From positions 1-64,000 of the forward strand of contig MWCL01000001.1 of assembly GCA_002070025.1 (NCBI GenBank): a stretch of DNA of 64,000 bases, written 5' to 3'. Every line of letters starts with the position of its first letter. Within the stretch, counting starts at the first letter, position 1. Shown here one piece after another: positions 8,899 through 19,916 of the stretch. Position numbers and translations under genes: made by a program. The stretch is from Spirochaetes bacterium ADurb.Bin215. Lineage in GTDB: Bacteria; Spirochaetota; Spirochaetia; Treponematales; Treponemataceae. The notes below the pieces were generated by a model. It did not search any database. It saw nothing but the letters and a program-made list of their open reading frames with translations, and was not told the origin of the DNA.

Positions 8899-10473
8899 GT
8901 GACCGGTTATCTTTCGCTCACGTTGTACATTCTCGCCATTCTGATAGTATTTGCCGCCTGCCGCCTCCATGTCCACAGAAACGGATCGCGTTTTCCTGCG
9001 TTCCGCACCGCGGGTGTCCTTGTCTTTTGTTCAATTCTTTTCCACCTGCTGCCGCCGCTGCGCCATCTTTCCGTTTTCCGCATCATATATGCGCTTTCCG
9101 GGGAGTATCTGGATCTTTTCTGGATCACATTCTACTTTTCAACCGCGATCCTTCTTGCGTCCGATTACCGCCACACGGTAGTGCATATTGCCGTGATCAC
9201 GGCATTGTCGCTCTTTGCCGCTGTCGGCATCTCCACCGTCCCCGTCCGTGATCTCTCGCGGGACGGCGCCTACACCCTGAAGCCCTGTACGGTGACCCTG
9301 CTTGACCGGCTCGACTCCGAATGCATCATTACCTGGTACCGCACGGATTCATACGCCGAGAGCTTGTCGGGTACGGCCCTTTCCATGCTTCTTGACCGGT
9401 ACGAGCGGCAGAATCGGGAACATCTGCGCTTCTATGCACGCGACCCGGTTCAAAACATTTCGCCCGCCTTTCCGGAAAAACTCGGACTGGTTCCCCTTGC
9501 TGACGGGAACTACTCGGGAATCCTCATCGAATACCGCGGTTCGAGCCGCCTTGTTCCGGTGATTGCCGGACATACCCTTGCGGAGTATGAGCTGACACGT
9601 TCGATTGAATCCCTTGTGGAAGGTTCCCGCGAATATCCGCTGCAGGTTCTTGTTCTGGGAAACCCCGGAAGCGGCCATGATCATCTGCAACTGCTTCTTG
9701 AACACGCGGAATTCACCCTCGTTCCCGTTGATAATCCCGAAAATGGTCTTGATGAACGAGTTCCTCTTGTGGTGATCGGTTCGCGCTTTGCTACCGGACC
9801 GGTCGCCCGTTCGATAGACGAATTCCTGAACCGGGGAGGGAATGCCCTGGTCATGGTTTCCGGTACGGAAATCGACAGTACCGGCGACTGGTCCGCCCGC
9901 ACGAAATCCGGTGATCCGGTCATCGAGTTGCTCCGCCGCCGGGGTATCGCCGTACAGGATCGTCTGCTCCGCGACAAAAACCATTACACCATCATCATGA
10001 ACGCTCTTGAGGACGAGGGAGTACAAACGGTGCCCTATCCCTACTGGATCAGAATTCCCGAATCGGGATTCCTGAACGGGCATTCCGTTTTTTCCGGGGT
10101 CCCGGCGCTCCAGCTGTACTGGCCGTCGCCGGTATCAATAGACGGTTCTGCGGGAATTCCGCTCATGCAAACCGGAAAAAACGCGCAGGCGGACCATGCC
10201 CCGTTTGACACCCGCCCGCTCGTTAACTCCGGGGAAACCGTTTGGAGCGGGGAAGGGAGCTTTATCGTCGGTGTAATCCGTGATGACGGTTCCCGACTGA
10301 TCGTTATACCGGATGAACATGCCGTATCTTCGCTCAACGATTTCACCGGCGCATGGGACAACTATACGTTTTTTGTGAACTGTGCGGAGTGGATTTCAGG
10401 ACGGGAACACATAAGTACCCTGAAACGACGGGACCCGTCCTCTTTTGCCCTTGTGCGGAGGCTCTTCCCGTGA
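8899..10473 (+). CDS. GldG-like ABC-transporter auxiliary membrane protein
   Basis: 524 residues, GTG start preceded by GGGAGGA. Several N-terminal membrane helices (to about residue 115) are followed by a long extracytoplasmic domain resembling the GldG / ABC-transporter-auxiliary family: it opens with TVTLLDRLDSECIITWYRTD, contains DRYERQNREHLRFYARDP and then a Rossmann-like core (VLVLGNPGSG, VVIGSRF, LNRGGNALVMVSG). In Bacteroidetes GldG pairs with GldA and GldF in gliding and export; here no ATPase or GldF permease lies beside it. It overlaps the DUF4340-like gene by 4 bases, a common partnership. The substrate is unknown. Confidence 0.72.
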   Translation: MTGYLSLTLYILAILIVFAACRLHVHRNGSRFPAFRTAGVLVFCSILFHLLPPLRHLSVFRIIYALSGEYLDLFWITFYFSTAILLASDYRHTVVHIAVITALSLFAAVGISTVPVRDLSRDGAYTLKPCTVTLLDRLDSECIITWYRTDSYAESLSGTALSMLLDRYERQNREHLRFYARDPVQNISPAFPEKLGLVPLADGNYSGILIEYRGSSRLVPVIAGHTLAEYELTRSIESLVEGSREYPLQVLVLGNPGSGHDHLQLLLEHAEFTLVPVDNPENGLDERVPLVVIGSRFATGPVARSIDEFLNRGGNALVMVSGTEIDSTGDWSARTKSGDPVIELLRRRGIAVQDRLLRDKNHYTIIMNALEDEGVQTVPYPYWIRIPESGFLNGHSVFSGVPALQLYWPSPVSIDGSAGIPLMQTGKNAQADHAPFDTRPLVNSGETVWSGEGSFIVGVIRDDGSRLIVIPDEHAVSSLNDFTGAWDNYTFFVNCAEWISGREHISTLKRRDPSSFALVRRLFP

Positions 10474-11309
10474 AAAAAAATCGTATGCTCCTGGTCCTGC
10501 TCGCAGCCGTTCTGTTCTCATTATCGGTGTACCTGATACCGGTGAATGGACCGGAATCCGCCGTATCGGAATCTTTTCTCGCAGACGGACCGCTGGAGTA
10601 CCTCATGCTTCAAAAGGCTGATTCCTTCCCCCTGTATTTTATCCGTACGGGCGATCAGTGGAATCTTACCCTGGATGGTTCGGCGCAGTACCCGCTGAAC
10701 ATGACACGATTCACGGCCTTCTACGACGAATTGTCCCGCCGGCATGTCCTGACTGACACCGGTATCCGTGATCACCGGATCCATGAAACCGGAGAGCGGG
10801 CGGACTACAGAATCGAAAGCGGCCGTTTCGGCGGTACGATAACGCAAGTCGCGTTCGGTACAACGGGAGCGGATGAATGGTTCCGGTATATTTCCCGGGG
10901 ACCGATCGTGTACCGTACCGATAACGGCATACAGTATTTTCTTGATACCCGTACCGCGTTCTGGGTGAATCTGCGGCCCTTCGAGTCGATATTTGAAAAA
11001 TCGGGTCTCCAGCGAGCTGTTCTAACCCCGGACGGGTACCATCAACGGGAAGTTCCGCCGGATGCACTGAAGGGCCTTCAGCGCGCGCTGGAAGGACTTT
11101 CCTGCGTGGATATAACCAATATACCGGTAGTACCCGAACAGGAACTGGTTCTGGAGTTGGGGAATCTTTCTACGATACGGATCGGGTTTTCACGGCTTTC
11201 CGCAGAGCACGCGATCATGAGCGAAGACATCCACAAGGTATCGTGGATAATCCCCGCGGAGACAGCGACGCGGATTGAATCGTTTTTTAACGTGCAAGAA
11301 GGGGACTAG
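10470..11309 (+). CDS. DUF4340-like exported protein
   Basis: 279 residues from the GTG at 10470, which overlaps the stop of the GldG-like gene. One N-terminal membrane helix (MLLVLLAAVLFSLSVYLIP) is followed by a soluble domain. Pairing with a GldG-like protein and the general order (DSFPLYFIRTGDQWNL, then a beta-rich region ending in WIIPAETATRIESFF) fit DUF4340, a family usually encoded after gldG-like genes. Its molecular function is unknown. Its TAG shares the CTAG at 11306-11309 with the TAG of the convergent gene. Confidence 0.65.
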   Translation: MKKNRMLLVLLAAVLFSLSVYLIPVNGPESAVSESFLADGPLEYLMLQKADSFPLYFIRTGDQWNLTLDGSAQYPLNMTRFTAFYDELSRRHVLTDTGIRDHRIHETGERADYRIESGRFGGTITQVAFGTTGADEWFRYISRGPIVYRTDNGIQYFLDTRTAFWVNLRPFESIFEKSGLQRAVLTPDGYHQREVPPDALKGLQRALEGLSCVDITNIPVVPEQELVLELGNLSTIRIGFSRLSAEHAIMSEDIHKVSWIIPAETATRIESFFNVQEGD

Positions 11310-12682
11310 AGATTGCCCGCGACAAAGTCCCGGTATTTATCCGGATTTGCCCTGAATGCAACGATGGGAAGATCCGGCTCCGCGACAGCTTTTGTCGCGG
11401 CGGCTACCGCTTCATCGAGCATCCGATCGGCCGAAATGAGCCGGGCGGTCCGCGTGGTAATGCCGATGGTTATCTGACTTTCGTATCCGCTTTCCATCAG
11501 CAGCGCATCGATATTCTCGTACAGTTCGTCGGCCAGTTTCATGGCCTGATCAAGGGTTACGTTCTGGAAAATTCCAGCAAATCCGTCAACACCGAATTCA
11601 AAAACCATATCGCGGAATTTGATGAGTTCCAGAAAAGCCTGCGCTATCTTGCGGGAAACGAGATCGGTGTGTTTTGTACCCGAAATGCGCACCACCATGA
11701 GTGACAGGTCCTGTTCCGACGAAGCCGCCCGTACCAGTTCGGCATCGAGACGCTCTTTCAGGTATTCTTCCCAGCCGACTCCGGTCGCCGGGGAATACAA
11801 CCCCTCCGGGCGCTGATCATCGATGGTGTCAGAAATGTCAGCAGGGGCACTATCCGGAATGTGATCCGGTTCAATATCCTGGAATACTTCACCATTGTGC
11901 TCATGGATATCGGTATCGTCATAACCCGTGTCGGGTTCATCGTAGCCATTTTCGGGCTCGTTGTAGCCATTATCAGGTTCGTCGTAGCCGGATCCCGGTT
12001 CGTCAAACGGAAACCCGAAATCGTCATCGGCGGCGGTATCGTCAAACGGCGGAACCGTTACCCGGGCAAGCTCATCGGCATCCGGACCGCGTGCGGTCTC
12101 GGGAAGCGTATCGGGCATCTCGTACGACGTGGCGACCGGTGTACTGCCGTTCTTGCCGGGTGAATAGGCAAGTATGACGATCAGGGTTATCATAATCAGC
12201 GCGAGGGTAATGAGAAACGACAGTCTGCTTGCCGTGAAAATTGCCGAAGGGTGAAGAATGTACATGACGGCGGTCGCGACTACCGGAGGGCCGGAATGAC
12301 CGGGAATGTCGAGTTCAGTACTGAACGTGCGCATGAAAAGCGAAGAACCGGTCAGGACCGCCTCGCCGTTGGCGGTATAGGAAATTTGCCCGGAACGGTC
12401 CGGCCAGGCATAGGCCACACCGGAGGGCGTGGTAATCATGAACGCTACGAGTGAACGGGATTTACGGCAGGTATCCGTGAGTTTTCCGACAAACTGATCG
12501 CTCATGAATCCGTCAGTTACCGCGGACAGAGACGTGCTACGGGTAATCCAGGAAAAACTGAGGTCGGCTTCCCCGGCTCCTTTTTGAAGTTCCGAGTACA
12601 CGGTAACCGAAAAAAGTGCGATGGAGAACAGCAGGACCAAAAACGCGAAGATACTGTAACCGGTAACAAACCTTTTGCTCAT
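11306..12682 (-). CDS. Membrane protein with degenerate GGDEF-like domain and acidic GYDEPDN repeats
   Basis: 458 residues, last gene of the five-gene minus-strand operon; its ATG overlaps the previous stop. Helix 1 (about 8-28), an extracytoplasmic domain (30-155), helix 2 (about 158-178) and a cytoplasmic part. The cytoplasmic part starts with an acidic linker holding four copies of a 7-residue unit like GYDEPDN (about 228-255). The C-terminal domain from about residue 305 has the GGDEF fold pattern (YLKERLDAELVRAASSEQDLSLM, RDMVFEFGVDGFAGIF), but the signature reads GVDGF instead of GGDEF and the metal-binding segment after LSLM is changed. It should not make cyclic di-GMP. It probably senses an external signal and passes it on through a pseudo-GGDEF module. 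Confidence 0.65.
   Translation of the reverse strand: MSKRFVTGYSIFAFLVLLFSIALFSVTVYSELQKGAGEADLSFSWITRSTSLSAVTDGFMSDQFVGKLTDTCRKSRSLVAFMITTPSGVAYAWPDRSGQISYTANGEAVLTGSSLFMRTFSTELDIPGHSGPPVVATAVMYILHPSAIFTASRLSFLITLALIMITLIVILAYSPGKNGSTPVATSYEMPDTLPETARGPDADELARVTVPPFDDTAADDDFGFPFDEPGSGYDEPDNGYNEPENGYDEPDTGYDDTDIHEHNGEVFQDIEPDHIPDSAPADISDTIDDQRPEGLYSPATGVGWEEYLKERLDAELVRAASSEQDLSLMVVRISGTKHTDLVSRKIAQAFLELIKFRDMVFEFGVDGFAGIFQNVTLDQAMKLADELYENIDALLMESGYESQITIGITTRTARLISADRMLDEAVAAATKAVAEPDLPIVAFRANPDKYRDFVAGNL
11910..12004 (-). repeat. 21-bp tandem repeats coding for GYDEPDN units
   Basis: About four imperfect 21-base units, best conserved at 11931-11951, 11952-11972 and 11973-11993, with partial units on either side. 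Each encodes seven residues of the form GY(D/N)EP(D/E)N. The units differ at several third positions, which suggests an old expansion, though copy number could still vary between strains. Confidence 0.7.
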
Positions 12683-14226
12683 GATGCAACAGTATATCCC
12701 GCAATCATGTCCAGCGCAAGTTGAATTGCTTTTTTCCGCCCATTTTCACCGGGATGGATGGCATGATGCCGCTGAAACCACGCAAAGAACGGGAGCATTG
12801 CGGTATACCAGTCGGTATGCCCGGTATCATTGGAAAGGATCTCCTTCAAACCCCTTGTGAGCCGTCCAAGAAACTCATCCACGGGAAAGGCGGAAAAGGT
12901 ATCATCCGTCCAGCGGATTGTCTGTATGGCAGCGTTCATGGCTTGCTTGTATGACCGCATAACTTCGGTATGATAGGTCCAGCCTCCGGCGTCGTGCGTA
13001 CGTTCAACCGCGCTTCTGAACATGAGCGCGGTAAAGGCGGATTCGGCAGAAGCTGTTCTCTGGGAAGACGAATCAAAAAGCTCGGACAGATAGGTGTTCC
13101 GCGCATAGGGCTTGCCGCGCGTATACGCGAAATCAGCGCCGATAACGCGGGGATTGTCATATCCGAGCGCAATTGCGGCATTGCGGGCCGCGCCGGTAAC
13201 CGTTCCGGATGCGGTGTCGAGTACGGGCAGGGGCGAGCAGTTGGCGGCCATACGTGAAAGCGGGTGCCCGCCCGCGAAAAGAATAACCCGCGCTCCGTAT
13301 GAAAGTGCCCGTTGTACTGCGGCCGGATTTGAAACGCAATCCGCCAGAAAAACGGTTTCAGGTTCGGGAGGCCGGAACAGATGCCATGACGAATAATGCT
13401 GCGGATCGATGGTCACATAATAATCCGGTACAATACCGTATCCGGCCAGCGTGCCGCAGGCGGTATCCGTGGAAAACACGCAGTACCGGTCCCGGTTCGC
13501 CACTATTTCCGGCAAATCCTTCTCGAGAGAGGGCCCTGCCGCGGCGATAATCGCCGATCTATCCCTGGAAATTCCGGGCAGTTCCGTAACAAACCGGCCC
13601 CGCATTTCGTGCATGTTTTTCAGGAAATTTGAAAACCATATCCGTCCGAAATGGGCCTGTACCGAATAGTCCCGGCCCACGGCAGCAAGTACGGAGGATA
13701 TCGCATCCTGTACGGAAGAAGAGAAAAACCGCGAAGTCCATGACCGGAAGGAACAGGTGGCGAACGAGCCGTGTACGGCCGGAAGATACCGGGCTGGAAG
13801 CTGTGCCATGAGGGTATCCGGAAGACAATCTTTCAGAAGATATACCCTGGAACTTGAAAGTATGTCATCAAGCGCGACAGATTCGAGAAGCGAACGGAGC
13901 GCGGGAAGGCTTTTTTCCGCTGCGGCACAGTACGCACCCGGATTTTTCCGCAAAAATGCGCGGATTTGAAATGCGCCGGCGATTCCCAAAAACAACACAA
14001 AGGAAGCATCGCCCAAATCAGCTATCGTACGGTCCGCTTCCGTTTCGGGATCATAGCGCGAATTTGCCGGTGTACCATCTCCGTAACAGGGAACAGGGTG
14101 TCCGCTCCGGGTCAGGATACTGCCGGAATACGTATCATCGGAAACAACACCAGCCAGCATATCCGCCAGCGCCGGATTCACCTTCCTCAGCGAAGCAAGA
14201 TTTGACGAAAAAATCTCACCGGACAC
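12679..14226 (-). CDS. DUF115 / MptE-like protein (Maf-type glycosyltransferase), second copy
   Basis: 515 residues from the GTG at 14224-14226; an upstream TTG at 14256 would add 10 residues, but the GTG has AAAGGA nine bases ahead and a normal 11-base overlap with the preceding gene. The DUF115 core is clear: IIAAAGPSLEKDL (about residue 225 on), VFSTDTACGTLAGYGIVPDYYVTIDPQHYSSWHLF, and GADFAYTRGKPYARNTY. In Campylobacter, Helicobacter and some spirochaetes related Maf proteins are needed to add nonulosonic acid sugars to flagellin. The sugar and target here are not known. The fold is related to hydroxymethylpterin pyrophosphokinase, but a folate role is unlikely in this setting. Confidence 0.78.
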   Translation of the reverse strand: MSGEIFSSNLASLRKVNPALADMLAGVVSDDTYSGSILTRSGHPVPCYGDGTPANSRYDPETEADRTIADLGDASFVLFLGIAGAFQIRAFLRKNPGAYCAAAEKSLPALRSLLESVALDDILSSSRVYLLKDCLPDTLMAQLPARYLPAVHGSFATCSFRSWTSRFFSSSVQDAISSVLAAVGRDYSVQAHFGRIWFSNFLKNMHEMRGRFVTELPGISRDRSAIIAAAGPSLEKDLPEIVANRDRYCVFSTDTACGTLAGYGIVPDYYVTIDPQHYSSWHLFRPPEPETVFLADCVSNPAAVQRALSYGARVILFAGGHPLSRMAANCSPLPVLDTASGTVTGAARNAAIALGYDNPRVIGADFAYTRGKPYARNTYLSELFDSSSQRTASAESAFTALMFRSAVERTHDAGGWTYHTEVMRSYKQAMNAAIQTIRWTDDTFSAFPVDEFLGRLTRGLKEILSNDTGHTDWYTAMLPFFAWFQRHHAIHPGENGRKKAIQLALDMIAGYTVAS

Positions 14227-15655
14227 GACGGGTAATCCTTTCTGCGAGGGTCGCAAGGTACCGGGATGTATCCGCGCATAGAACCCGATAATCGCCGGAC
14301 TTCATTGCGGTAGTATACGCGGCAAATGAAACCAGCTGAAGTAATTCAAGAATGTCCGGTTCAACATCCATTCCCGGCGTAAGGGCTGCCACGGTTCCAG
14401 CCCGGTCGGTAAGATAATGTGCCACTCGCTCCGCACGTACGCGTCGGTCCGGAACATCCTGTGTCATCATTTCAAGAGGAAACGCTTTCGTTCCGCTCTC
14501 CTGTGCAAGGTCGCGGACAGGTATTCCCGGAATTGACCGGAGGGATGCCGGTATCCGGAACAATCTCCCGTCAAAACTTTGGCTGTTCGTTTCAAACCAG
14601 CGCGCGTACGCATCGAGCGCAAAGGAGTTTTCAGCGCGTTCGTGGAGGACACTGCAGAGGGGTGAGGTGCGGCGGGTCCCTGAGTCAAGCAGCGGGCCGA
14701 AGGCATGGGGCCTCGCGTGAGAAAAAGAACGTGACACGGACAAATCAAGACCCGCCGCGATAACGGAACCTTGTCCATTGTCAAGAAGATACCGGACCGC
14801 CGTTCCGGATACCGTGCCGTTTCGCTCAGCGGGAACCGAATTGATCCCGGCAAGATCAAACAGCTTTTTTTCGAGTGCCGACGAATACGACAGAAACACG
14901 ACGGGTTGTTCTTCCAATATGGTGCGGGGAACGGCCGCTTCCGGCGGAAAGACCAGGACCGTCCCGGATGGCAGGTAGCGCAAATGGTCCCGTGCCCAAT
15001 ACCCTCCGTCGGTGGTTATGCAAATATTCGCAAAAACACGGTTTTCTGAAAGTGCGGCAAGGGACGATGAAACTGCCGCGACATGAAATGAACTCAGGTC
15101 TTGCGGAAACACGCTTTCAAGGGACGGTCCCGAGCAGGCAAGGAGTACCGGACCGGTCAGGGCAGAAATGCGTACCGGATTTTTCGCAAGCACCACGGAA
15201 TTCACCATGTTTGTCAGCCATCGTTTTCCGAAATGGGTCCGTGTCCTCAGTATCCCCGACTGGAGACGTACAAGCTCCGCTATACCGCTCCACACCGCTT
15301 TTGCGGCTTCCGGCCAGAGTGAATCGGCAGGTTTCCAGGGAACAAACACTGTTTGGGGGATAAATTCTTCCGGAATGAAGCGGTACAAAAAATCAGTTAC
15401 CGTTCCGGTTTCTCCGGGTCGCCAAACCGCTGTCCACAACGAATCCGATTCGGTGAATTTGTCCGCGGTGTAGCGAAGGGCGATCAGGGATGCATTCGGA
15501 AAACGGGTACGTAGTACGGAGGCAAGATGAGACTCCCCCGGTTCAGTAATAACAATACAACGAGGATTTTTTTCCTTGATTGCCGTGTCGACAAACCGTT
15601 CCGCCTCACGAGCCGGATTATACGCGGAGTGCAGACGAATGCAATCCGTGCACAT
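14216..15655 (-). CDS. DUF115 / MptE-like protein, first copy
   Basis: 479 residues from the ATG at 15653-15655; an in-frame TTG two codons earlier overlaps the stop of the preceding gene and is an alternative. The DUF115 core is visible as TGPVLLACSGPSLESVF, followed by VAAVSSSLAALSENRVFANICITTDGGYWARDHL and VIAAGLDLSVSRSFSHARPHAF. It is a diverged paralogue of the next gene: both carry a GPSLE motif and an HFG+W helix just before it (THFGKRWLTNMV here, AHFGRIWFSNFL there). Tandem DUF115 genes suggest two steps, or a heteromer, in one glycosylation path. Enzyme activity is inferred only from family links to flagellin Maf proteins. Confidence 0.75.
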   Translation of the reverse strand: MCTDCIRLHSAYNPAREAERFVDTAIKEKNPRCIVITEPGESHLASVLRTRFPNASLIALRYTADKFTESDSLWTAVWRPGETGTVTDFLYRFIPEEFIPQTVFVPWKPADSLWPEAAKAVWSGIAELVRLQSGILRTRTHFGKRWLTNMVNSVVLAKNPVRISALTGPVLLACSGPSLESVFPQDLSSFHVAAVSSSLAALSENRVFANICITTDGGYWARDHLRYLPSGTVLVFPPEAAVPRTILEEQPVVFLSYSSALEKKLFDLAGINSVPAERNGTVSGTAVRYLLDNGQGSVIAAGLDLSVSRSFSHARPHAFGPLLDSGTRRTSPLCSVLHERAENSFALDAYARWFETNSQSFDGRLFRIPASLRSIPGIPVRDLAQESGTKAFPLEMMTQDVPDRRVRAERVAHYLTDRAGTVAALTPGMDVEPDILELLQLVSFAAYTTAMKSGDYRVLCADTSRYLATLAERITRRVR

Positions 15656-15657
15656 CC

Positions 15658-16599
15658 TCAATGAACTCCGTTTAAAAAATCCCGGGTATATTCCGGGTTC
15701 TGGCTGGTTCCGAACGACGAAAAATCCAGACGGGCAACCCGTGTCGCACCGAAATGCCGTTCAAGGGCTTTTTTCATCTGATAGATGTATAAATCGGGAT
15801 CAGTACCCTGTGCCGCGAAAATAATGATTCTGAGCGTATACTCATGATCCCGCCGAACGATACTCGCGGGGCCGGCCTGACGGATTATCCTGTTCGCGAG
15901 CGCCCGGTACAAGACATTGCGGGTAAAGTCGGTTTCTATCTGGACAGGATCGGGAAAAAGACGTGAAAACGATACCGAAACGAGGAGGGCAGTACGCCGT
16001 TCCCCGAACGCCGCAGTCATTTTTTCCTGCCCGGTTGCGGTATGTTCTGCGGGAATATCCCGTACCGACAGCGCAGAAACAAGCGCAGTATTTTTTTTGA
16101 GAACCGTTTCCAGAGGTTCCAGATCAATTGCGGAAAGGGTAAGCGGAGTACGTCCCATGGACAAACGGGATTCAGTGAGTACAATACGGAATGTCTGATC
16201 ATGAACATGGAGGGGATGCAGCGCTATAGTGTCGAGGCTTGCCCGCTCCCTTGTAGACAACCATGGAGCGAAAAGCTTCAGATTGGAACCGGAAAATACT
16301 TTCCATGTGTCGGAATCCCGACACATGTCATCCATCATCATAATTTCCGGCATCATGCGGACACATGAGGTAAAATCAAATCCGGTTTGTATCAATACCT
16401 GATAGTACTCTTCTCCGGGATACAGCAATAATCCTTTTTCGCATTGTGCTTCAGCGAGAATATCCTGGAAGGTGCTTACCAGGCAGTCATACGGAGAATT
16501 GCCGACAATTCTGCCGAGCAAGCCATTTTTTTTTTTGCATTGCACGGCGGATTGCGACGGAGGTTCCATTTTTGAAACGGCTTGTTTAATGAGCCCCAT
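15658..16599 (-). CDS. Unrecognised cytoplasmic protein of the acidic/DUF115 operon
   Basis: 313 residues with no signal peptide or membrane helix. I do not recognise the family. The gene begins two bases after the stop of the giant acidic gene, and its stop lies just before the first DUF115 start, so it is translated as part of the operon. Visible segments are LVSTFQDILAEAQCEKGLLLYPG near the N-terminus and a C-terminal alpha/beta part with LYIYQMKKALERHFGATRVARLDF. A run of eleven A (T on the plus strand, 16526-16536) sits near codon 24 and encodes CKKKN, a spot where polymerase slippage would shift the frame. Confidence 0.7.
   Translation of the reverse strand: MGLIKQAVSKMEPPSQSAVQCKKKNGLLGRIVGNSPYDCLVSTFQDILAEAQCEKGLLLYPGEEYYQVLIQTGFDFTSCVRMMPEIMMMDDMCRDSDTWKVFSGSNLKLFAPWLSTRERASLDTIALHPLHVHDQTFRIVLTESRLSMGRTPLTLSAIDLEPLETVLKKNTALVSALSVRDIPAEHTATGQEKMTAAFGERRTALLVSVSFSRLFPDPVQIETDFTRNVLYRALANRIIRQAGPASIVRRDHEYTLRIIIFAAQGTDPDLYIYQMKKALERHFGATRVARLDFSSFGTSQNPEYTRDFLNGVH
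16526..16536 (-). repeat. A11 homopolymer inside a coding region
   Basis: Eleven T on the plus strand (A on the coding strand) near the 5' end of the unrecognised 313-residue gene. Runs this long are prone to replication or transcription slippage, and a one-base change would truncate the protein within a few codons. Confidence 0.8.
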
Positions 16600-16601
16600 A
16601 A

Positions 16602-19600
16602 TCAGGTAATACCAAGTTCCTCAAAAAGCCTTTTGTACACTTCAAAATGTTCAGAACGGGCAAATTCCTCGATTTTATCCTCGGGAAGGCTTTCCAGGAG
16701 CTGATCCATGTAGGACAGAACTGATTTTATTTCGTCCTTGAGTTCAACGGGAAGGGCGGCAACACCGGTATCAACCACGGCAGCTTCAGGCGCTTCAGGC
16801 GCTGTAGGCTCTTCCGCTTCAGGCGCTTCAGGCGTTTCAGTCACTTCAGGAACAGCGGTTTCGCCGATTTCAATGTCTTCAAGTACGGATTCTTCGTAAA
16901 CCGTTTCTGTTTCCGGCTCCACGATACTTTCTTCAAGGAAGGATTCGGTTTGTTCGGATTCATCAGTAACTGAACCGATAGAATCTTCCATGGCGGAAAA
17001 ATCGATATTGAATTCGGTCAGTTCCGGTTCCTCGAGATGCTCATCGTTAAAATCGAGTGTTTCAATGTCGGATTCTTCTATAGCGACATTTTCGAGATCA
17101 GGTTCAACCGATTCACTGCCTTCAAGGTAACTGACATCCTCTTCAACCTTGTTGACATACGATACTTCAACTTCATCAGTGATATCGTTGGTGCCGAACA
17201 TCTCGTCTTCAGTGAGAACATCCGGAATATCCAGTTCTTCAGGTTCATTCAAACCGCCATCATCATCAAAGGCAATTTCGTCAAACTGGGTAGATTCTTC
17301 CTCCGGAGAGAAGTCCGCAGTAACATCCTCGCTGGATGATGCGCCAATTTCATTCATTGACATATCGTCAAAATCGTCCAGCTCGGGTTCACCTGTTTTT
17401 TCTTCGGTAAAGTCGGCAGTAATGAGAATATTGTTCAATTCATCACCGGTAAGGGCAATCGTCTCATCGGTATCATCGTCCGAGAAGAAGCCGGTGTTAT
17501 CGGAACTTTCAGCTGTTACTGAATCAGTGGAAGAATTGTCACTTTGGGAAACCGGTTTCATCGTGGTAGAAAGCTCGGAATTCAATGTTGAAAGTTCTTT
17601 TTTGATGGAAGACAATTCCTCTGCGATGAGCATCAACAATTCTGTTGACTTGTCATTTGAAGTCACGTCGATTTCTCCTGTGTCAGTACCGGACTCGTGT
17701 AATGACTCCTCAAACGCGCCGACATCGTCAAAATCGATTGACATGCCCTCGTCGTCGGAATCCGAAATACCGGATTGGTATTCATTGTAATCCGATTCTC
17801 CAGTAATATCAAGAATATCTTTCTCCACAATCTCCATCGAATCATCGTCGCTGTCCAGAACAGTGAATCCTTCGTCAGTATCACCGGATAGTGCGAGGGA
17901 ATCAAACGATTCGGTCTCTGGCTCGGGGGATTCTTCATCAAGCAGGGAGACTTCTGGTATGCTATCCTCCGGCTCAAGTTCGACCATCCCGGCAATTGAT
18001 TCGTCTTCGGTTACGATCTCTTCCTGAACGAATTCCTCAAGTGAAGAAAGATCAACACTACCGATTTCAAGTTCGGCCGTATCATCGTCGGAAAGCATGG
18101 ACGCTTCATCTTCTACCGCGAGATCCTCAATGGTGGCAGATTCGTCTTCCACTACCGGCAGTTCCTCCCCTGAATACGATCCAGGGGATTCGCTAAAAAG
18201 CGGTACATTGAAATCGTCGCCTTCATTCATTTCCGGAGCCTCGTTGGCTACGGACTCGAGTCCGTCTTCTTCGGTTACATTCAGATTGAATTCCTGGACA
18301 ACTTTTTCTTCTTTTAATTCTGAAGCTCCCGGAGCAGCGGGACGGGCGGTTTCCAGGGACGCGAGAAGATCATCGAATTCCGAGGCTATTTCGAGCGTAT
18401 CGTCTTCGGTGGAGGGCGCAGGGCTGGCTGCTGCAGGAGTCTTTCCATCTTCTTCGGCAAACATTTCCGAATCAAAAGATTCAAAGCCGTCAAAATCCTC
18501 GCCCGAACCGGTTTCATCAACAAATTCGACACCGAACTCCGAGTTCTCAAATTCCGCTTCCGAAATAGAGGACCCGGCGGCGCGAATCTTTTCCGAGTTC
18601 TCGATAAACTCTTCATCAAACTCGAGATCAATATCAACCGGTTCCACATCGGAAAACAGTTTTTCTTTTTCCTTTTCTGTTGTTCCGCCGGAATCATTTA
18701 TTTCATTGATAAAATCGTCAAGATCAAGATCGTCAAAGCCGGAGGAACCGGAAGAATCCCGGGGAGCGGATCCTGAATTGATGTCATCGAGCAACGAACT
18801 GAAATCATCCTCATCGGGAGGATTCACCGACCCGGCAGATTGTTCTCCGGCATTGATCATGTCGGCAATGCCGGAGAAATCTTCCATTGAAAAATCGGCA
18901 AGTTCCGGATCAAGCTCCGCAAGAACATCATTTTCGACGACAGGTGCTGCGGCTTCTTCAACGACAGGCTCGGCGGCTTCTTCAACAAGTTCTTCAAAAG
19001 AATCAGGCAACGGTTCATCAGAAACTTCGCCGAACGATTCGGAAGCGGTGACCTCCTGAGGTTCACTGAACGATTCTGTATCGGTATCCACTGAGAATTC
19101 TTCAGTAGGGGAGAGGTCTTCGTCGTCCGGGTTAACCGCTATTTCAAGTTCGTCCACAAGGATTTCTTCACCGGACGTTTCATCCGTGACCTCGTAGTCA
19201 AATTCATCCGCAACAATGTCAAAATCGGCGATTTCTTCCATTTCATCGGAACTGTCAGCGGTATCGGGTACGATATCTGTTTCCATATCAACAAGGAAAT
19301 CTTCTTCCAGAAGGGTATCATCATCACCGGTTCCAATTTCTTCGAGAGGCTGTTCCTCAACGGCTTCATCTACGGAGTCCAGTTCGTCGAACGAAATGGC
19401 ACCGAAGTCAAAATCATCATTTTCCGCGACAATTTCCGGTACTTCTGCGTCAGCTTCTTCCAAATCGGCCGATTCTTCGGCGTCTTCGGCTTCGGGAGTG
19501 TCGAAATCGGGCAGTTCAAACGAAGTATCCGGAGAAAGCTCATCTGATACAACGTCCTGTTCGGTCATGTCGGGCTCGGTACTTTCGGCGTCAAAATCTT

Positions 19601-19820
19601 CTATATCGGGAAGTTCATCAAATTCAGAGATATCGGGAACATCGGAGAAAACGGGCAAGACGGTATCGACCGAACCGGATTCGTCCTCCTCAACGAGTGA
19701 GGACACATCCCGGGGACCGCTTTTAACCCAGACACCGTACATGTCCAATGTTTCAGTTTCATCATTGAATTCAACAGGAAAAGAAGAGTCTCGAATTTCG
19801 TCGTTTTCAAAGTCCGGCAT
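16602..19820 (-). CDS. Giant acidic, low-complexity protein with conserved C-terminal helix module
   Basis: 1072 residues, first gene of the operon. Most of the chain is Asp, Glu and Ser with regularly spaced Phe, Leu, Ile and Val, so it is likely disordered with short hydrophobic interaction spots. No signal peptide or membrane helix is seen. Ordered parts are a short N-terminal piece (LDMYGVWVKSGPRDVSSLVEE), a helix near the middle (LLMLIAEELSSIKKELSTLNSEL) and a C-terminal module of about 50 residues (VELKDEIKSVLSYMDQLL, then IEEFARSEHFEVYKRLF). An Ala-Pro-Glu linker precedes that module. I do not recognise a function; it looks like a cytoplasmic scaffold or hub. The reading frame is supported by its length and by coupling to the next gene; the long Ser-rich frame on the other strand is its shadow. 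Confidence 0.8.
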   Translation of the reverse strand: MPDFENDEIRDSSFPVEFNDETETLDMYGVWVKSGPRDVSSLVEEDESGSVDTVLPVFSDVPDISEFDELPDIEDFDAESTEPDMTEQDVVSDELSPDTSFELPDFDTPEAEDAEESADLEEADAEVPEIVAENDDFDFGAISFDELDSVDEAVEEQPLEEIGTGDDDTLLEEDFLVDMETDIVPDTADSSDEMEEIADFDIVADEFDYEVTDETSGEEILVDELEIAVNPDDEDLSPTEEFSVDTDTESFSEPQEVTASESFGEVSDEPLPDSFEELVEEAAEPVVEEAAAPVVENDVLAELDPELADFSMEDFSGIADMINAGEQSAGSVNPPDEDDFSSLLDDINSGSAPRDSSGSSGFDDLDLDDFINEINDSGGTTEKEKEKLFSDVEPVDIDLEFDEEFIENSEKIRAAGSSISEAEFENSEFGVEFVDETGSGEDFDGFESFDSEMFAEEDGKTPAAASPAPSTEDDTLEIASEFDDLLASLETARPAAPGASELKEEKVVQEFNLNVTEEDGLESVANEAPEMNEGDDFNVPLFSESPGSYSGEELPVVEDESATIEDLAVEDEASMLSDDDTAELEIGSVDLSSLEEFVQEEIVTEDESIAGMVELEPEDSIPEVSLLDEESPEPETESFDSLALSGDTDEGFTVLDSDDDSMEIVEKDILDITGESDYNEYQSGISDSDDEGMSIDFDDVGAFEESLHESGTDTGEIDVTSNDKSTELLMLIAEELSSIKKELSTLNSELSTTMKPVSQSDNSSTDSVTAESSDNTGFFSDDDTDETIALTGDELNNILITADFTEEKTGEPELDDFDDMSMNEIGASSSEDVTADFSPEEESTQFDEIAFDDDGGLNEPEELDIPDVLTEDEMFGTNDITDEVEVSYVNKVEEDVSYLEGSESVEPDLENVAIEESDIETLDFNDEHLEEPELTEFNIDFSAMEDSIGSVTDESEQTESFLEESIVEPETETVYEESVLEDIEIGETAVPEVTETPEAPEAEEPTAPEAPEAAVVDTGVAALPVELKDEIKSVLSYMDQLLESLPEDKIEEFARSEHFEVYKRLFEELGIT

Positions 19821-19888
19821 TATAAGCGCTCCCGAAAGTTATTGATTTACTCTTTTCCTTATCGGCAAGGGAGGGGCATTAATTTAAC

Positions 19889-19916
19889 TGTATATTACCC
19901 TGAAAGCCCCTGTCAA
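19889..19916 (-). promoter_or_regulatory. Promoter of the acidic/DUF115 operon
   Basis: On the minus strand TTGACA (19916-19911), a 16-base spacer and TATACA (19894-19889). This leaves a leader of about 60 bases to the ATG at 19820, with CGGGAG as ribosome binding site. Unlike several neighbours this gene is not leaderless. Confidence 0.6.

Follow-up and report, generated by a model that had tools for sequence, protein, structure and literature searches.

A conserved spirochaete operon that joins two candidate Maf-type flagellin glycosyltransferases with a giant acidic protein and two predicted degenerate GGDEF proteins

Five tightly packed genes in a spirochaete genome, two of them DUF115-like, raise the question of whether their products act together in the modification of flagellins and, if so, which of them are tied to the flagellar filament. 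The genes lie on the minus strand at 11306-19820 of the window, that is, of the whole 64,000-nucleotide stretch of DNA that was analysed. An ORF check verified all five of them, here called A to E, and confirmed that they are joined by gaps or overlaps of a few bases, as the sequence-only reading of this DNA had described. A and B are separated by 2 nt, and B–C and D–E each overlap by 4 nt. The overlap between C and D is 11 nt with the GTG start of D and 41 nt with its TTG start. The features are as follows:

19887-19916, minus strand: probable sigma-70-type promoter, TTGACA-18-TACAGT, upstream of A
16602-19820, minus strand: gene A, 1072 aa, acidic, predicted disordered
19713-19748, minus strand: N-terminal conserved element of A, LDMYGVWVKSGP, residues 25-36, from the alignment of homologues
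17571-17645, minus strand: short coiled-coil-like island of A, residues 726-750, mean identity 0.72
17403-17495, minus strand: island of A with IALTGDELNNIL, residues 776-806, the motif occurring one to four times in most A homologues
16605-16745, minus strand: conserved C-terminal module of A, about 47 aa, residues 1026-1072, from homologue comparison
15658-16599, minus strand: gene B, 313 aa, GAF plus degenerate GGDEF by predicted fold
14216-15661, minus strand: gene C, 481 aa, divergent DUF115/Maf-like
12679-14226 (GTG start) or 12679-14256 (TTG start, longest frame), minus strand: gene D, DUF115/Maf-like
11306-12682, minus strand: gene E, membrane protein with degenerate GGDEF

For gene D the GTG at 14226 is the likelier start than the TTG at 14256, since an AAGGA lies about 8 nt upstream of it and it aligns with the start methionine of relatives. 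The single promoter that had been proposed upstream of A was present as well. By count, promoter-like sites were not above chance (10 found versus 9.6 expected). Of 41 A loci, the window included, 24 nevertheless have an exact TTGACA followed by a spacer of 16-18 nt ahead of A, mostly about equally far from the conserved YGVWV codons, and because of this conservation we regard the promoter as probably real despite the chance-level count. Upstream of the operon there is a divergent DivIC gene, followed by TP0183-family and SmpB genes. On the downstream side a convergent gene (10353-11309, plus strand) meets E. Its 318-aa product belongs to no known family; the gene is preceded by a GldG-like gene and the protein was recognised in several relatives.

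The order of the genes was not specific to this strain. A-B-C-D(-E) was nearly always kept in 40 loci of the family and order, and it was also found in other Spirochaetia families (genomes G082, G084, G063, G128, G105 and G092). E was not found beside A-B-C-D at the G092 locus, and most loci of families f3 and f4 had no E in the operon region. The divergent DivIC, TP0183-family and SmpB genes were conserved neighbours across the order as well as in additional Spirochaetia families. The operon was also carried by genome G030 (L040) and is apparently present in the syphilis organism. In T. pallidum, TPASS_0181 is a septum formation initiator (PMC4403809). As this gene is the divergent neighbour of A, the operon should sit just below that number.

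The sequence-only reading had assigned both C and D to DUF115. For D the assignment was clear: it matched PF01973 (Maf_flag10/DUF115) with 95.4 bits against a cut-off of 34.6, and its family profile matched the crystal structure 5mu5, a Maf of Magnetospirillum, with an E-value of 2.3e-16. D also aligned weakly with the N-terminal domain of that structure (13.4 bits). With 41.5 bits against a cut-off of 670 for the NCBIfam model NF050051 (flagellin modification protein PseD), it is a relative of that family and not a member. C as a single sequence was a weak DUF115 protein (24.6 bits, below the cut-off of 34.6), and its assignment was firm only at the level of the family profile, which matched 5mu5 with an E-value of 2.2e-8. 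The Pfam family name and weaker matches to the MptE structures 8sd5 and 8sbu would also allow C and D to be read as 6-hydroxymethylpterin diphosphokinases of a pterin pathway unrelated to flagella. However, Maf was the better match for both profiles (for D, 2.3e-16 versus 2.3e-10 with MptE), the weak alignment of D extended to the N-terminal domain of Maf, and C and D co-occurred strictly with flagellin. We rejected the pterin-enzyme reading, which is very improbable, on the grounds of the stronger Maf match and this co-occurrence.

In a tree built by a quick method, C, D and two groups of dispersed DUF115 paralogues each formed a single group, which points to an old C/D pair passed on by vertical descent. 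The source genome itself carries two further DUF115 paralogues away from the operon. Of the two dispersed groups (seen at L105, on C19 of the own genome, at L106, on C65, and at L107), one follows a signal-peptidase-like gene and a gene for a penicillin-binding protein with PASTA, and the other is placed after a PpiC/SurA-like gene. Judged by gene size, each of these contexts is seen again in relatives.

The distribution of the genes strongly supported the link between DUF115 proteins and flagellin that had been drawn from other flagellated bacteria. Counted without regard to kinship, with the within-family contrasts of families f3, f14 and f16 nearest to independent events, a D-type match was found among relatives in 53 of 54 flagellin-positive genomes, the single exception being a genome 59% complete, and in none of the 5 flagellin-negative ones. 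Of 35 chosen genomes of the class, 18 contained DUF115 and all of these were flagellin-positive, while DUF115 was absent from 13 of 13 flagellin-negative genomes. The operon is thus not equally present in non-flagellated relatives. Four Borreliaceae-like genomes among the 35 contained flagellin and no DUF115, and genomes of this kind have flagellin without any operon gene. In a class sample of 297 genomes, A and flagellin occurred together in 177, flagellin without A in 56, A without flagellin in 4 and neither in 60; 36 of the 56 genomes with flagellin and no A belonged to one Borreliaceae-like family with genomes of 0.9-1.9 Mb.

Genomes that have lost flagellin and kept the export component FlhA allow genes linked to the filament to be told from those linked to export, and they render the question testable. 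FlhA was missing from flagellin-negative genomes of family f3 and from those tested of f7, f8, f13 and f22. It was kept, with both flagellin domains missing, in two genomes of f14 (G067 and G127) and in four of genus g50 of f16 (G094, G160, G069 and G113). A diverged FliM was found in 5 of these 6 genomes, which possibly contain repurposed or decaying flagellar export machines. DUF115 was absent from all 6; it is therefore the filament protein that it tracks, not the export machine. NeuB, the nonulosonate synthase by which alone the donor pathway was judged, tracked flagellin in much the same pattern as DUF115. Full-length NeuB was found in 16 of 17 genomes with flagellin and DUF115 (the own genome included) and in 2 of 13 flagellin-negative genomes, and it was not found in one Borreliaceae-like genome tested. 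The exceptions were G046 and G049, which keep NeuB without flagellin, and the flagellated relative G010, which is without full-length NeuB. A NeuB-SAF gene stands next to the operon in G014, 74 nt upstream of smpB.

The co-loss of DUF115 and flagellin cannot be told from a simultaneous loss of other filament proteins. Such proteins may have gone together with flagellin, so that there may be filament-level acceptors other than flagellin. C and D could then modify the sheath protein FlaA, a cap protein or a hook-associated protein, or could be non-catalytic chaperones of the filament, and the score of C below the Pfam cut-off for DUF115 would agree with this. We consider this unlikely, since the profiles of both C and D match Maf, NeuB shows much the same pattern, and flagellins of treponemes are known to bear a glycan that is essential (PMC9481697).

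Gene B had been listed as an unknown protein, which left the operon with a single pseudo-GGDEF protein, and this had to be revised. A Pfam/NCBIfam search gave no family match for B, and the single match in a sequence search of solved structures (E 0.18) was disregarded. The AlphaFold model (pLDDT 88.5) consists of a soluble GAF domain (about residues 35-145) and a degenerate GGDEF fold (187-309). The best PDB matches in fold comparison were Dcsbis (4zmu, E 2e-7) and PelD (4eu0, E 2.8e-4), with low whole-chain TM-scores (0.37) and an unsure mutual placement of the domains. In the equivalents of B outside Spirochaetia, Pfam recognises GAF and a weak GGDEF. By its predicted fold B is a GAF protein with a degenerate GGDEF domain, and the operon would thus hold two degenerate GGDEF proteins and not one.

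The description of E as a membrane protein with a dead GGDEF domain was upheld. E is composed of a transmembrane helix, an extracytoplasmic domain, a second transmembrane helix, an acidic disordered linker (178-289) and a degenerate GGDEF domain (about 292-443). Instead of the GG[DE]EF signature of active diguanylate cyclases it has GVDGF, and in 25 of 25 homologues the fourth residue was G, S, C or A and never E. The RxxD I-site expected of a receptor was likewise not present as such in E homologues, D being found in 21 of 25, R in 1 of 25 and K in 13 of 25. E may bind c-di-GMP by a mode other than the RxxD I-site.

Gene A encodes a protein with 33% D+E, 2.4% K+R, a pI of 4.05 and no cysteine, for which the Pfam/NCBIfam search returned nothing usable and no Pfam match. 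Its homologues occupied the same position in nearly all fetched loci. When A was compared with seven relatives, most of the chain was only 10-40% identical, with four islands of higher conservation and weaker ones between them. The motif [ILV]xL[ST]xx[EQ][LMI]xx[ILV][ILVM] occurred 52 times in 55 A proteins versus 0.05 expected from shuffles. The C-terminal module had a mean column identity of 72% in 20 diverse homologues and was present in 117 of the 149 genomes that made up a phylum sample. Judged from these alignments, A occurs spirochaete-wide and carries four conserved islands within a variable acidic chain. It represents an uncharacterised phylum-wide family that in other lineages stands beside flagellar genes. 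Loci L079 and L085, from two families outside Spirochaetia, showed the succession fliS, A, a GAF-GGDEF protein and fapA, each a few bases from the next, and DUF115 was absent from the fetched stretch. At four other loci (L075, L078, L081 and L083) the genes that precede A and its partner are sized like those of an ATP synthase operon, of which one member each was confirmed in L075 and L081.

In the f14 genomes G067 and G127 (L095 and L096) A adjoins E, and B, C, D and flagellin are gone. These two loci rule out that A is strictly bound to flagellin, and the persistence of A and E without it indicates that both are less strictly tied to flagellin than C and D are. In genus g50 of f16, A was absent from two genomes, and in G160 no more than 92 aa of it are left. 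This remnant (L098:7054-7332, plus strand) retains the N-terminal YGVWI element, whereas its C-terminal module is broken off and reads into downstream sequence. It looks like a decaying gene in a flagellin-less lineage.

The arrangement of A and a GAF-GGDEF partner between fliS and fapA at loci with DUF115 absent from the fetched stretch, and the pairing of A with E in two FlhA-positive flagellin-negative genomes, would also fit a reading in which A, B and E make up a hub of their own, for flagellar export or at the basal body, with C and D as passengers of a shared transcription unit in Spirochaetia. The overlapping A-B-C-D order, kept across very divergent families, suggests a joint function instead, and A is absent or reduced in g50, the other FlhA-positive flagellin-negative genus. 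We judge this hub-and-passenger reading unlikely.

The best-supported reading, and in our judgement a probable one, is that C and D are Maf-type (DUF115) flagellin glycosyltransferases. From their Maf homology and their occurrence with flagellin and NeuB, we infer that they would be a vertically inherited pair that O-glycosylates flagellins (FlaB proteins) in the cytoplasm before export, and that the sugar moved would probably be a nonulosonic acid. A, B and E would be accessory proteins. The four conserved islands of A may dock the enzymes, B or flagellin, B and E with their dead GGDEF domains may be non-catalytic regulators or tethers, and E, being membrane-anchored, would recruit the complex to the membrane. 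It is plausible that A serves as a scaffold and that B and E have a controlling role. On the other side, flagellin glycosylation could rest on the two DUF115 paralogues elsewhere in the genome, and the predicted promoter of the operon is sigma-70-like. In T. denticola, FlaB1-3 carry a glycan of 450.2 Da that is essential for filament assembly (PMC9481697), and in the literature searched we found no paper naming a DUF115/Maf glycosyltransferase in treponemes. For this glycan the operon would provide two candidate enzymes and three accessory candidates.

More tentatively, A and its GAF-GGDEF partner might be a spirochaete-specific scaffold for the handling of flagellin that predates the link to DUF115. 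Such a disordered acidic hub would use its short motifs and its C-terminal module to gather the chaperone, the glycosyltransferases and membrane-bound dead-GGDEF proteins, and would serve a signal-controlled modification of flagellin and its delivery to the export gate. A hub of this type for flagellin glycosylation was not described in the literature searched. Thus, of the scaffolded, signal-controlled glycosylation module proposed at the outset, the DUF115-flagellin part was supported, while the scaffolded and signal-controlled part has indirect support from the fliS-A-GAF-GGDEF-fapA context and is weakened by the presence of A and E without flagellin at L095 and L096.

Polar hubs of the FimV/HubP type are proteins in which, as in A, a long acidic chain in the cytoplasm ends in a conserved module; the resemblance is in style only, A being without a Pfam match. 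B shares with PelD and Dcsbis the succession of a GAF domain and a GGDEF fold, and the GGDEF domain of PelD is likewise degenerate. It differs from them in being only about 10-13% identical and in its flagellar and not polysaccharide context. E has the membrane anchor, the extracytoplasmic domain and the GGDEF domain without catalytic signature of degenerate GGDEF membrane regulators, but the position of the I-site arginine is mostly lysine in its homologues. To our knowledge, a regulator of this kind belongs to no described Maf system. Besides 5mu5, Maf flagellin glycosyltransferases include Maf1 of Aeromonas, Maf4 of Campylobacter and CbMaf of C. botulinum. In Maf enzymes an N-terminal Rossmann-like and a C-terminal helical domain flank the centre (PMC11339370). 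D resembles these enzymes in the central DUF115 domain, C does so at the level of its family profile, and both resemble them in their occurrence with flagellin and NeuB; the N-terminal Rossmann-like stretch could be weakly aligned in D, and C is very divergent. In contrast to known Maf systems, there are two adjacent divergent paralogues together with two dispersed ones, the flagellin gene is not beside them, and a giant acidic protein and two predicted degenerate GGDEF proteins are encoded in the same operon as the pair.
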